A DNA stretch of 64,000 nucleotides from Corynebacterium halotolerans YIM 70093 = DSM 44683 (GTDB taxonomy: Bacteria; Actinomycetota; Actinomycetes; Mycobacteriales; Mycobacteriaceae): NCBI RefSeq assembly GCF_000341345.1, contig NC_020302.1:2336075-2400074 (forward strand). The letters run 5' to 3'. A program made the translations under genes and the position numbers. The notes below the pieces were generated by a model. The model saw nothing but the letters and a program-made list of their open reading frames with translations, made no database searches and was not told the DNA's origin. Shown here in pieces: positions 25,915 through 29,035 of this stretch (position 1 is the stretch's first letter; each line of letters begins with the position of its first letter).

Positions 25915-27705
25915 GTGTCCGATTCACGTCCGGAAGATGAGTCATCGCACGAGACGGCCCCGCGGGAGCCTGTCCCGCACACCGCCCCGCGCAACACCGA
26001 GCGCGCGAACGTCGAGACGGAGCCCCTGCCCGCCCGCCCGCGCGCCTGGCAGCTGTTGACCGCCTTCCATTCCACCGGCCCCCGCTGGCCGGGCTCGCTG
26101 CGGGCTGCACTCGCGCTGACGATCCCCGGCCTGATCGCGCTGACGTTCGGGCTGGAGAACGAGATGCTGCTCATCGCCGCCGGCGGTTTCACCGTCATCT
26201 ACGGCGAGGGCCACCCCTTCCGCGCCCGGTGGCGGATCATGCTCACCGCCGGTCTGCTGATCGCCGCCGGTGCCACCACCGGCGCTTTCGTGGGCACCTT
26301 CGTCTGGCAGAACATCGACGCCGGCGGCTCCCACTGGTGGCTGATGCTCGCCGCGGTCTACACCTCACTGATCGCCACGGGCGGCGGGTTCATCCAGAAC
26401 GCGTTACGACTGAATCCGCCGGGTTCCTTCTTCATCGTCATGGTCTCCGGCGGTTCCACCGTCGTCGCCCGACTGGGCCTGAACCCGGTCGAGGTGGGCG
26501 CCTGGGCCCTGGTCGGCGTCGCCTCGGGCGTCATCATCGGCATGGCCCCGGCGCTGCTCAACGCGCGCCGCCCCCAGGAGCAGGCCGTCGGCACCCTCGA
26601 GAAGGCCGTCGCCGACTTCGAGAACGCCCCGCAGCCCGCCGTGGCGAAGAATCACCAGGCCAAGACCGCCCTGGCCAATGCCTGGGCCTCGCTCGCGGAC
26701 GCCGGAGTGCTCCGCGACGGCCGCGTCATCGACCACCGGCAGGAGGATCTCGTCCGCCGCACCACGGCCGCCCATCACCGGTTGGTCAACGCCAGCGTAA
26801 TGCTGCCGAACGACGGCACCGTCGAGGAACTGACGGACACCCCGAACTACATCGACCTCTCGCGCACCTCCATCCCGCACGCGCGGCCGACGATCGCCTA
26901 CCGGCTCTACCGTTCGATGCACCCGTACAGCCACGCCTCCCTGACGGCGGGCAGGATCCTGGTGGCCACCCTGCTGGCCAGCACCGTCGGCATCGCCTTC
27001 GGCCTCGACCGCCCGGACTGGGCGATCGTGTCCGCGCTGCTGATCCTCCAGTGGGGCCCCGACCGGGTGCCGGGCACGATCCGTGGCCTGCACCGCCTGG
27101 TCGGCTCCGTGGCGGGCATCGGCCTGTTCGCGGTCTTCCACCTGCTGCAGGTGGAGGGCGTGACCCTGCTGCTGGCGCTGGCGGTCTGCCAGTTCTTCGC
27201 CGAGTTCTTCGTCGTCCGCAACTACGCCTTCGCCGTCATCTTCACCACGCCGCTGGCGCTGCTGATGGGCAACTCGATCGCGGATCCGCTCGGCGACGTG
27301 GTGGTCTCCCGTTCCCTGGAGGTGGCCCTGTCGATCATCTTCGGCATCCTGCTGCTGTGGGTCTGGTTCGCCAACTCGGAGCCGCGCCACCACGCCCGCC
27401 TGGTCCAGCGCAGCTTCGACGCGATGGGCTCCCTGCTCGGCGCGCTGATGGTGACCAGCCCCGCCGACGCCCTGACCGAGCGGCGCGACCTGCAGTACGA
27501 GCTGCTCAGCGAGCGCCGCGCCGCCCACTCCCTGGCCAACAACCACCCCGAGCTGGCGAAGAAGCGCTGGGAGACGCACCTGGCCGTGCAGATGGCCGGC
27601 TACGGGTTGCTGGACTCCGCCGCAGCCCACCCCGGCCGACCGATGACCCCGGAGGAGATCGTCGTCCTGGCGGGCCGGGTCCGCGCCGCCGCGGAATACC
27701 GCTAG
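25915..27705 (+). CDS. FUSC-family integral membrane protein (aromatic acid exporter-like)
   Basis: 596 residues. A 45-residue hydrophilic leader is followed by two repeats, each a bundle of about five to six helices (residues about 65-215 and 345-480) with a soluble segment after each. This is the layout of YccS/FUSC exporters. The line SALLILQWGPDRVPGTIRGLHR in the second half matches their conserved loop. Presumed efflux of organic acids. GTG start with AAGGGAG upstream. The TAG stop is part of the CTAG where an IS-derived cassette begins. Confidence 0.8.
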   Translation: MSDSRPEDESSHETAPREPVPHTAPRNTERANVETEPLPARPRAWQLLTAFHSTGPRWPGSLRAALALTIPGLIALTFGLENEMLLIAAGGFTVIYGEGHPFRARWRIMLTAGLLIAAGATTGAFVGTFVWQNIDAGGSHWWLMLAAVYTSLIATGGGFIQNALRLNPPGSFFIVMVSGGSTVVARLGLNPVEVGAWALVGVASGVIIGMAPALLNARRPQEQAVGTLEKAVADFENAPQPAVAKNHQAKTALANAWASLADAGVLRDGRVIDHRQEDLVRRTTAAHHRLVNASVMLPNDGTVEELTDTPNYIDLSRTSIPHARPTIAYRLYRSMHPYSHASLTAGRILVATLLASTVGIAFGLDRPDWAIVSALLILQWGPDRVPGTIRGLHRLVGSVAGIGLFAVFHLLQVEGVTLLLALAVCQFFAEFFVVRNYAFAVIFTTPLALLMGNSIADPLGDVVVSRSLEVALSIIFGILLLWVWFANSEPRHHARLVQRSFDAMGSLLGALMVTSPADALTERRDLQYELLSERRAAHSLANNHPELAKKRWETHLAVQMAGYGLLDSAAAHPGRPMTPEEIVVLAGRVRAAAEYR

Positions 27706-27915
27706 GGCGTGTTTAGCAATCTCCTCAGCCACATCACGACCGCGACGGTCACCAGGCCAGCCCGGTAGACAACCACGAGTTTGTCGAACCGGGCGGCCAG
27801 CCCGCGCCACTGCTTGAGGTTGTCGAAGAACCGTCCCACCACGTTGCGCCCCTTGCAGGACTCCGCATTGAAAGACGGTGGCCTCCCGCCCTTCGAGCCC
27901 TTGCGTTTCCGGGCG
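27703..27915 (-). pseudogene. IS5-family transposase, C-terminal remnant
   Basis: On the minus strand about 70 codons encode the end of an IS5-type transposase: KGSKGGRPPSFNAE, KGRNVVGRFFDNLKQWRGLA, RFDKLVVVYRAGLVTVAVVM and a stop that uses the target CTAG. It holds the end of the DDE domain, including a NVVGRFF block where the catalytic Glu (usually NVVERxF) is replaced by Gly. The N-terminal two thirds are gone, replaced by the lipoprotein region. Confidence 0.8.
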
Positions 27916-28459
27916 GCGTTTCGACATTCAGCACTGCTATTCGAGATATGGTTGCGTTGTGAAGAAAATTCTCGTCATCTGTGCGACGGCTTTGGTGTTG
28001 GCGGGCTGTTCGAGCCCCGAGGGTGAGCAGACGGTTACTGAGGTGCCAGCGGAGACCGTTGCTGAGGCGCCGGCAGAGACGGTCACTTTGCCAGAAGGCT
28101 ACCCGCAGATTGTCCCGATCTCGGAGCTTCCCGAAAACATGCAGTGGGCATTTGAGGGAACAGGCACTGGAGAGGCTGTAGCGGTTGCGCCTGGCGTATG
28201 GGCAGAACTTGCCCCGGGAGCGACAGCGGAAGATGCCGTTAATGCGGGGGTATTTAACGGTCACTGTTCTTCTAAGGAAGCGTTCGAGCGAGAATATCTG
28301 AACGGGGAGTCGACCGCTGGAACTTGCTGGTAGCCTTATTTTTCCTTCGAGCTTCGCCTGGTATGGCATTGGTTTGAGGGCGTGTCTCATAAAACTATGA
28401 AGCGCGGCATGGGATCGAGGATCCCATGCCGCGCTTCCCCCCTAATTGTCAGACACGCC
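27706..28459. mobile_element. IS5-derived cassette with matching ends and CTAG target duplication
   Basis: The left end GGCGTGTTTAGCAAT (27706-27720) and the inverted right end GGCGTGTCTGACAAT (28459 backwards) agree at 12 of 15 positions. Both ends are flanked by CTAG (27702-27705 and 28460-28463), the kind of target used by IS5 relatives. Inside are a transposase stub, a small lipoprotein gene of clearly lower G+C, and a short inverted-repeat unit. It can no longer transpose by itself but has the form of a mobile insertion cassette carrying a passenger gene. Confidence 0.75.
27959..28333 (+). CDS. Small secreted lipoprotein (passenger gene)
   Basis: 124 residues from GTG: KK, a hydrophobic stretch and the lipobox LAGC give a clear lipoprotein leader. 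The mature part begins with a Thr/Glu/Ala repeat (TEVPAETVAEAPAETVTLPE) as extended linker, then a small domain with two cysteines near the end (GHCSSKE and AGTC). No family recognised. Its lower G+C sets it apart from flanking genes. A TATGGT -10 hexamer six bases before the GTG suggests leaderless expression. It lies wholly inside the IS-derived cassette. Confidence 0.75.
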   Translation: MKKILVICATALVLAGCSSPEGEQTVTEVPAETVAEAPAETVTLPEGYPQIVPISELPENMQWAFEGTGTGEAVAVAPGVWAELAPGATAEDAVNAGVFNGHCSSKEAFEREYLNGESTAGTCW

Positions 28460-28461
28460 CT
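28377..28461. repeat. 85-bp MITE-like unit with central hairpin
   Basis: Perfect 11-bp terminal inverted repeats AGGGCGTGTCT (28377-28387) and AGACACGCCCT (28451-28461). In the middle is a perfect 17-bp stem (28400-28416 and 28420-28436) with a GAG loop. Its outer end coincides with the right end of the larger IS-derived cassette. It may be an independent miniature element or the shared IS end, and the hairpin could terminate transcription from both sides. Confidence 0.65.
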
Positions 28462-29035
28462 AGCCGGCCTCGGGCCGGAACAACAGTTCCTGGACCCGGG
28501 GCTGCGGCACCGGCCGCATCCCCCAGGCGTCCAGGCCGACATCCACCTGCCCGGGGCAGCTCACCGGCGACGTCGAATGCAGGTGCCCGTGGACGAGCCA
28601 GTCGACGTCGAGCCGCACGTCGTCGTGGCGCGACTCCGTCCTTTCGTGGTCCTGCCCCGGACGCGGGAAGTGGCTGAGGTAGACGGCACGTCCCTCCCAG
28701 CGCAGCTTCTGATACGGCTGCACCGAGGCGAAGACCTCCAGGAACTTCGGCTGCATGCGGAAGGCCGACTTGTGCAGCGGGTGGCACGAGTCGTGGTTGC
28801 CCGGGACCAGATGAATCTCCAGGTGCGCGGCGTGCTCGGCGATCAACCGCAGCGCCCGCTGTTCGTCCTCCGGGGCACCGCGTGAGAGGTCGCCGAGCAC
28901 CCACAGGCGGTCGCCGGCCGGCAGCGCGGCGAGATTGGCGAGCACCAGTTCATCATGGTCGTCGACCTCCATCCCGCGCGTACGGGCCACGAAGCGGTGG
29001 CCCAGGTGCAGGTCCGAGGTGAACCAGACCGTCAC
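28460..29035 (-). CDS. Metallophosphoesterase
   Basis: 191 residues, calcineurin-like fold. Metal ligands are visible in order: SDLHLGH at residues 6-12, LGDLS near 47, PGNHD near 78, SHFPRPG near 120 and HGHLH near 148. Small proteins of this type hydrolyse phosphodiesters or nucleotides. The start is four bases inside the upstream DsbA-like gene. The TAG stop lies in the CTAG at the right edge of the IS-derived cassette. Confidence 0.88.
   Translation of the reverse strand: MTVWFTSDLHLGHRFVARTRGMEVDDHDELVLANLAALPAGDRLWVLGDLSRGAPEDEQRALRLIAEHAAHLEIHLVPGNHDSCHPLHKSAFRMQPKFLEVFASVQPYQKLRWEGRAVYLSHFPRPGQDHERTESRHDDVRLDVDWLVHGHLHSTSPVSCPGQVDVGLDAWGMRPVPQPRVQELLFRPEAG

Follow-up and report, generated by a model that had tools for sequence, protein, structure and literature searches.

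A putative IS5-type composite insert between the stop codons of two convergent genes in Corynebacterium halotolerans

IS870 is an IS5-family element of Agrobacterium. Its CTAG target reportedly generates the stop codon of the element's own reading frame, as the title of a 1993 paper by Fournier, Paulus and Otten has it. The other described systems closest to the locus reported here are cassettes and small elements. Mobile insertion cassettes (MICs) and transporter insertion sequences (ISs) hold a cargo other than a transposase between IS ends and a target repeat (PMC3129680). In the qnrS2 mobile insertion cassette of Aeromonas pAC3, which disrupted a gene, the cargo lies between IS-type ends together with an internal miniature inverted-repeat transposable element (MITE) (PMC5444012). 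MITEPsy1, a 100-nt unit with inverted ends, CTAG or YTAA targets and a possible origin from IS5, occurs in several copies, and its transposition has been demonstrated (PMC3189936). In this study, we describe an insert between a FUSC-type membrane protein gene and a convergent calcineurin-like phosphoesterase gene in a 64,000-nt stretch of the C. halotolerans genome (the whole stretch is hereafter called the window; the genome comprises 3.22 Mb in two contigs). We consider it likely that an IS5-type element inserted here at a CTAG shared as stop codon by both genes, that both stops were thereby rebuilt, and that the insert is now a composite without a working transposase.

Two CTAG copies delimit the insert, at 27702-27705 and 28460-28463. 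The left copy contains the TAG stop of the FUSC gene (27703-27705, + strand) and the right copy that of the phosphoesterase gene (28460-28462, - strand), and the 754 bp between them (27706-28459) begin with GGCGTGT and end with ACACGCC; all of this had been given exactly to the base in an earlier, sequence-only reading of the window, which also proposed an IS5-type insert. A repeat search found an inverted pair at 27701-27720 and 28445-28464 with 85% identity over 20 nt. The left 213 bp are 82-83% identical to IS5-type elements of Corynebacterium genomes G241, G116 and G149 (L, G and H labels denote loci, genomes and records of the comparison DNA), and the last 61 bp are 83-85% identical to the opposite ends of such elements, which supports that proposal. 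Because IS5-type matches are found at both ends of the insert and CTAG is strongly depleted in the window (10 seen vs 47.9 expected from trinucleotide counts), the inverted ends around the CTAGs are no chance match. Compared with the intact relatives, the outer ends stand in the order of a single IS, with the 3' end on the left and the 5' end on the right. The insert thus reads as an IS5-type element of the Corynebacterium kind between the stops of two convergent genes. The element type is already known, and the insert is one more, well explained example of it.

Internally, the insert is a composite (Table 1), in which a dead IS 3' end is followed by a gene for a putative lipoprotein and by a MITE-like end of 83 bp with an inner IS-like end at 28378; the gene and the MITE-like end are absent from the sequence-only reading. 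The transposase survives as a 73-aa C-terminal piece with 80% identity over 70 aa to that of an intact relative, and where the YKGRNVVERFF stretch of that relative has its Y and E, the window has C and G. The replaced E is presumably catalytic in the IS5 family. Against PF13586 the piece scored below the cut-off (E 0.047); the transposase of the intact relative matched PF13340 (4e-26) and PF01609 (1e-19). In the one intact relative examined, the transposase is encoded in two open reading frames (ORFs) with DUF4096 and DDE_Tnp_1 domains, and we take such two-ORF IS5-type relatives to be the IS427 group. Related intact elements measure 924-983 bp, except for five longer ones, and have ends like GGGCGTGT. 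No working transposase was found in the insert, where the N-terminal part is absent and the conserved E is replaced by G. The 83-bp unit at the right forms a strong hairpin (fold z-score -10.65), which spans the transposase start of similar intact relatives, and carries two IS-like ends of its own. Like a MITE, the unit at 28378-28460 is short, has two inverted ends and encodes no transposase, and in its shortness, inverted ends, target type and possible IS5 origin it resembles MITEPsy1; unlike MITEPsy1 and the multi-copy MITEs in general, it is present once, with no other full-length match among 242 genomes. With its IS ends, a cargo gene and no transposase gene (a remnant persists), the insert as a whole is built like a mobile insertion cassette. 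It differs from the described MICs in its single copy, its one MITE-like end and the piece of transposase left in it, and its movement as a unit is a proposal. Like the qnrS2 cassette, it combines a MITE-like unit with a cargo gene flanked by IS-type ends; unlike that cassette, it has other ends and another cargo, and it spared both host genes.

Table 1. Features of the insert and of the two genes that flank it, in window coordinates
Feature	Position	Strand	Remarks
FUSC-type membrane protein gene	25915..27705	+	Pfam FUSC_2 (PF13515); C-terminal tail compared with 13 relatives
Left copy of TA target duplication	27703..27704		inside CTAG 27702-27705
IS5-type 3' end with terminal inverted repeat GGGCGTGTTTAGCAAT and transposase C-terminal remnant	27705..27918	-	82-83% DNA identity to G241, G116, G149
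Foreign segment between IS parts	27919..28377	+	56% GC vs 69% in the window; no IS match
Cargo gene, 124-aa putative lipoprotein	27959..28333	+	GTG start; LAGC ahead of the mature part
MITE-like right end, 83 bp	28378..28460		outer IS end GGGCGTGTCTGACAAT (- strand), hairpin, inner IS-like end GGGCGTGTCTCATAA
Perfect 18-bp inverted repeat, 3-nt loop	28399..28437		terminator-like on the - strand
Calcineurin-like phosphoesterase gene	28460..29035	-	Pfam Metallophos (PF00149); C-terminal tail compared with 13 relatives
Right copy of TA target duplication	28461..28462		inside CTAG 28460-28463

The sequence-only reading had further taken the whole CTAG as the duplicated target. Repeats do flank the insert, but among 19 candidate intact relatives, at least two of which look like the same insertion repeated in another genome, TA stands on both sides in 17/19 and a matching 4-bp form in 14/19. 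CTAG was rejected as the true duplication on these counts; the duplication is better read as TA, and the element would then comprise 27705-28460 (756 bp). If TA is what was duplicated, the element itself starts with G and ends with C, and ends of this kind would rebuild TAG on both strands after insertion at a TA. The target also serves the element's own frame. In 13 of 19 relatives, a set that coincides only in part with the 19 above, the transposase frame stays open to the final base of the element and the target provides its stop codon. Of the remaining six, two end 12 nt sooner and one ends 17 nt beyond the element; the other three have no qualifying frame. The remnant in the window likewise takes its stop TAG (- strand) from the left CTAG. 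In this respect the elements behave like IS870; unlike IS870, the same bases in the window also keep the stops of two host genes, and the element there has no transposase. The elegant neutral site that had been suggested is borne out in that both stops are kept. Its neutrality appears, however, to follow from the element ends (G...C) plus the target (YTAR), and it is one-sided in other copies.

To compare the junction with its relatives, 48 loci with relatives of the phosphoesterase were read. Within the comparison DNA, a FUSC gene adjoins the phosphoesterase gene in convergent orientation in 13 of them; a fourteenth FUSC match, in L017, lies away from this junction. None of the 13 junctions has an insert, and at each of them the two frames overlap, as had been anticipated. 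The overlap is 8-15 nt in ten loci and 119-161 nt in three, and in L010, L011, L085, L086 and L087 an 8-nt palindrome, TCAGCTGA, provides both stops of FUSC and phosphoesterase. The tails of the window proteins end within a few residues of those of ten of the 13 relatives. The window's FUSC tail exceeds that of eight relatives, falls 3 residues short of that of two, and is far shorter than that of the three relatives with long overlaps; its phosphoesterase tail exceeds that of ten relatives and falls short of that of the long-overlap three. Both host genes are apparently whole, in line with the earlier claim that the insertion left both proteins intact.

The relatives of the element also seem to lie at gene stops more often than expected, although the pattern is modest. 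The idea arose from 20 relatives. A motif search gave at least 95 element ends (for some genomes, the first places were listed), and 59 stretches were then fetched that cover 84 of the 95 listed ends; they yielded 50 elements (L183-L241), selected for TA on both sides, with CTAG (40), CTAA (6), TTAG (2), GTAG (1) and CTAT (1) as targets. In 23/50 elements the duplicated stop is also the exact end of an open host frame of 100 codons or more; the same holds for 44/203 other CTAGs in these flanks. Once a base-composition filter was applied and transposases were excluded, the counts are 17/50 vs 28/203 (p 0.0017, exploratory). The filtered enrichment is also found in the subset judged new since the first 20 relatives (12/34, p 0.0049) and with CTAG targets only (13/40, p 0.0092), and for every one of the 17 elements the modelled empty site retains the stop of one or more of these frames. 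When CTAGs were resampled from the same genomes (43 of the 50 elements usable, 5000 draws), the observed count was reached 63 times at 100 codons, once at 80, never at 60 and 48 times at 150. Unfiltered frames of 200 codons gave no significant result in Fisher's test (0.074). By a crude gene caller, 19 of the 50 elements coincide with a stop, 13 are intergenic and 18 fall within a called gene, vs 32, 54 and 133, respectively, of 219 background sites; against the intergenic background sites alone, p was 0.038. One frame from each of the 17 elements was tested, and 16 of these frames carry a Pfam domain, for example enoyl-CoA hydratase or threonine dehydratase; the frame taken from L224 was the left one, and its stop falls outside the modelled empty site. 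These figures are to be read with the caveats that the idea came from part of the same data and that copies within a genome are not independent.

We considered whether double stops like that of the window are common among these elements, and rejected this, as they occur in 4/50 with open frames alone and in 1/50 with the coding filter. One frame counted among the open ones, at L202, belongs to a neighbouring transposase and was dropped from the filtered counts. The sole filtered double stop, in L224, has CTAT as its target, so that its left stop lies outside the modelled empty site; the crude caller found one double stop with shorter frames, in L198. Since YTAR targets and G...C ends rebuild TAG, leaving the host protein untouched and stopping the transposase as well, copies may be retained at gene ends or aimed at them; selection and targeting cannot be told apart in this enrichment. 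That stop codons are a landing place for this element class, with the window as the extreme, two-gene case, is a suggestion we make tentatively, judging its chances as a little short of even. A literature search over titles and the starts of abstracts, with most subscription papers outside reach, returned none on host stop codons as IS sites. The rule, that TA- or CTAG-targeting ISs can survive at stop codons which their own ends rebuild, can be checked in any genome. If it is true, annotators of ISs should be prepared to find gene stops within target repeats, and pairs of convergent genes that overlap would be predicted harmless sites.

With its cargo gene, the insert would join the cases in which IS ends flank a small passenger gene. 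The Pfam lipoprotein signal of the cargo protein is below the cut-off, and the mean predicted local distance difference test (pLDDT) score of a single-sequence fold prediction is 47. A search of 242 genomes of the genus gave one clear relative of the protein, in G088 (71% over residues 21-124); the four other hits, with E of 1e-4 to 1e-3, are confined to parts of residues 1-66. The G088 copy (L100 11523-12018), whose signal peptide and mature part are in different frames, is flanked, on our reading of the ORFs, by a putative exporter gene and a putative phage-type integrase gene, and the IS parts of the window have no match in the 2.7 kb around it. Between the window and G088, the non-synonymous rate (dN) is 0.10 and the synonymous rate (dS) 1.06 over 85 shared codons (dN/dS ~0.09), and because dN is low relative to dS, the cargo represents a real protein family. 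The protein has no match in the phage and plasmid collections or the viral contigs searched, one partial match in the genome contig collection (an Oribacterium metagenome-assembled genome) and a distant full-length match (28%) in G426, another genus of the family, which by eye adjoins a putative DNA methyltransferase gene. Weak matches of its N-terminus to PHROGs and NCBIfam were not used.

In the history that we favour, an IS5-type element of the two-ORF DUF4096/DDE_Tnp_1 kind would have entered the TA inside a CTAG that was the stop of both convergent genes. Transposition would have doubled the TA, and the G at the start and the C at the end of the element would have rebuilt TAG on both strands, with the ends of FUSC and phosphoesterase unchanged. 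The predicted empty-site junction is ...CGCTAGCC..., and the predicted empty site ...CCGCTAGCCGG... would have a 4-nt gene overlap. The option that we rank highest, at about even odds, is that today's composite arrived already assembled, with a related transposase acting on it in trans, as in a mobile insertion cassette. Several observations weigh against this history. The inner end at 28378 has GA beside it and the outer end TA. The full composite matches its own genome once, and no match in the 241 other genomes searched extends across it (best two candidates per genome scored). In the host genome, the end search gave a convincing end pair for one element only, which has GGACGTGTT ends. A filtered double stop with frames of at least 100 codons is present in the modelled empty site of 0/50 elements. 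The single shared CTAG of the sequence-only reading, with its 4-nt overlap, is seen in none of the 13 adjacent relatives; it cannot be read directly because the phosphoesterase of the nearest relative is only 76% identical, and no close relative with an empty site was found. The host genome has seven places with IS5-type transposase matches, the window's own among them, and neither transposase nor end searches found a cognate intact element for the cassette there. Because the sole convincing element has the ends given above and the five other places fitting the end pattern are far apart, the cassette is probably immobile now.

Alternatively, an intact IS5-type element may have settled at the CTAG and retained both outer ends, the centre of its transposase gene giving way later to the lipoprotein segment together with an inner IS-like end. 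Such remodelling in place would agree with the single-IS order of the outer ends, the decay of the 3' end (E to G, Y to C) and the one copy found, but two or more further events would be needed, and the right-hand 83 bp look like a whole MITE-like unit and not like an IS end that was cut; we regard it as possible, though less likely than entry as a composite. The two IS-like ends that the right 83 bp have of their own could also point to separate insertions of a MITE and an IS that were joined by a deletion, in which case the matching outer CTAGs would be a coincidence. With only 10 CTAGs in 64 kb, with the outer CTAGs abutting the outer ends exactly, and with the genes overlapping directly in the relatives, which makes the whole segment one interruption, this reading is very improbable.

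The insert may also have been kept as beneficial, either by a hairpin that ends antisense read-through between the convergent genes or by a useful lipoprotein. The perfect 18-bp hairpin is terminator-like on the - strand, the region has three such sites vs 1.1 expected, and the low dN/dS of the lipoprotein vs G088 would suit a useful protein; that ratio, however, may predate capture, a simple scan found no promoter-like site in 27600-28560, and the insert is absent from the 13 relatives. We think a benefit unlikely. A likely IS5-type insertion at a shared stop, with both stops rebuilt, accommodates the ends, the TA repeats, the truncation, the cargo and the overlapping convergent genes of the relatives.

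The pattern of the inner IS-like end occurs at 14 places in 7/242 genomes, without mismatch only in the window and G207, and not as an exact pattern in the viral contigs. That the inner end at 28378 marks a cassette family common to G207 was rejected: because the match of plasmid record H33 to the G207 gene starts just inside the IS end, the resemblance to G207 beyond the IS end is probably due to chance. Five of the 50 elements stand out by their length of 1139-2354 bp; they have other genes between their ends, and some of them may pair ends of different elements. By eye, related IS ends and TA repeats enclose a membrane protein gene at L202 3003-4141, genes for a LysR-like regulator and an acetyltransferase at L234 2493-4846, and genes for a TetR-like regulator and a VOC-like protein at L238 2113-4015, each of which is a possible cassette. 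At L194 3003-5240, an IS3-like reading-frame pair, also identified by eye, apparently lies inside an IS5-type element.

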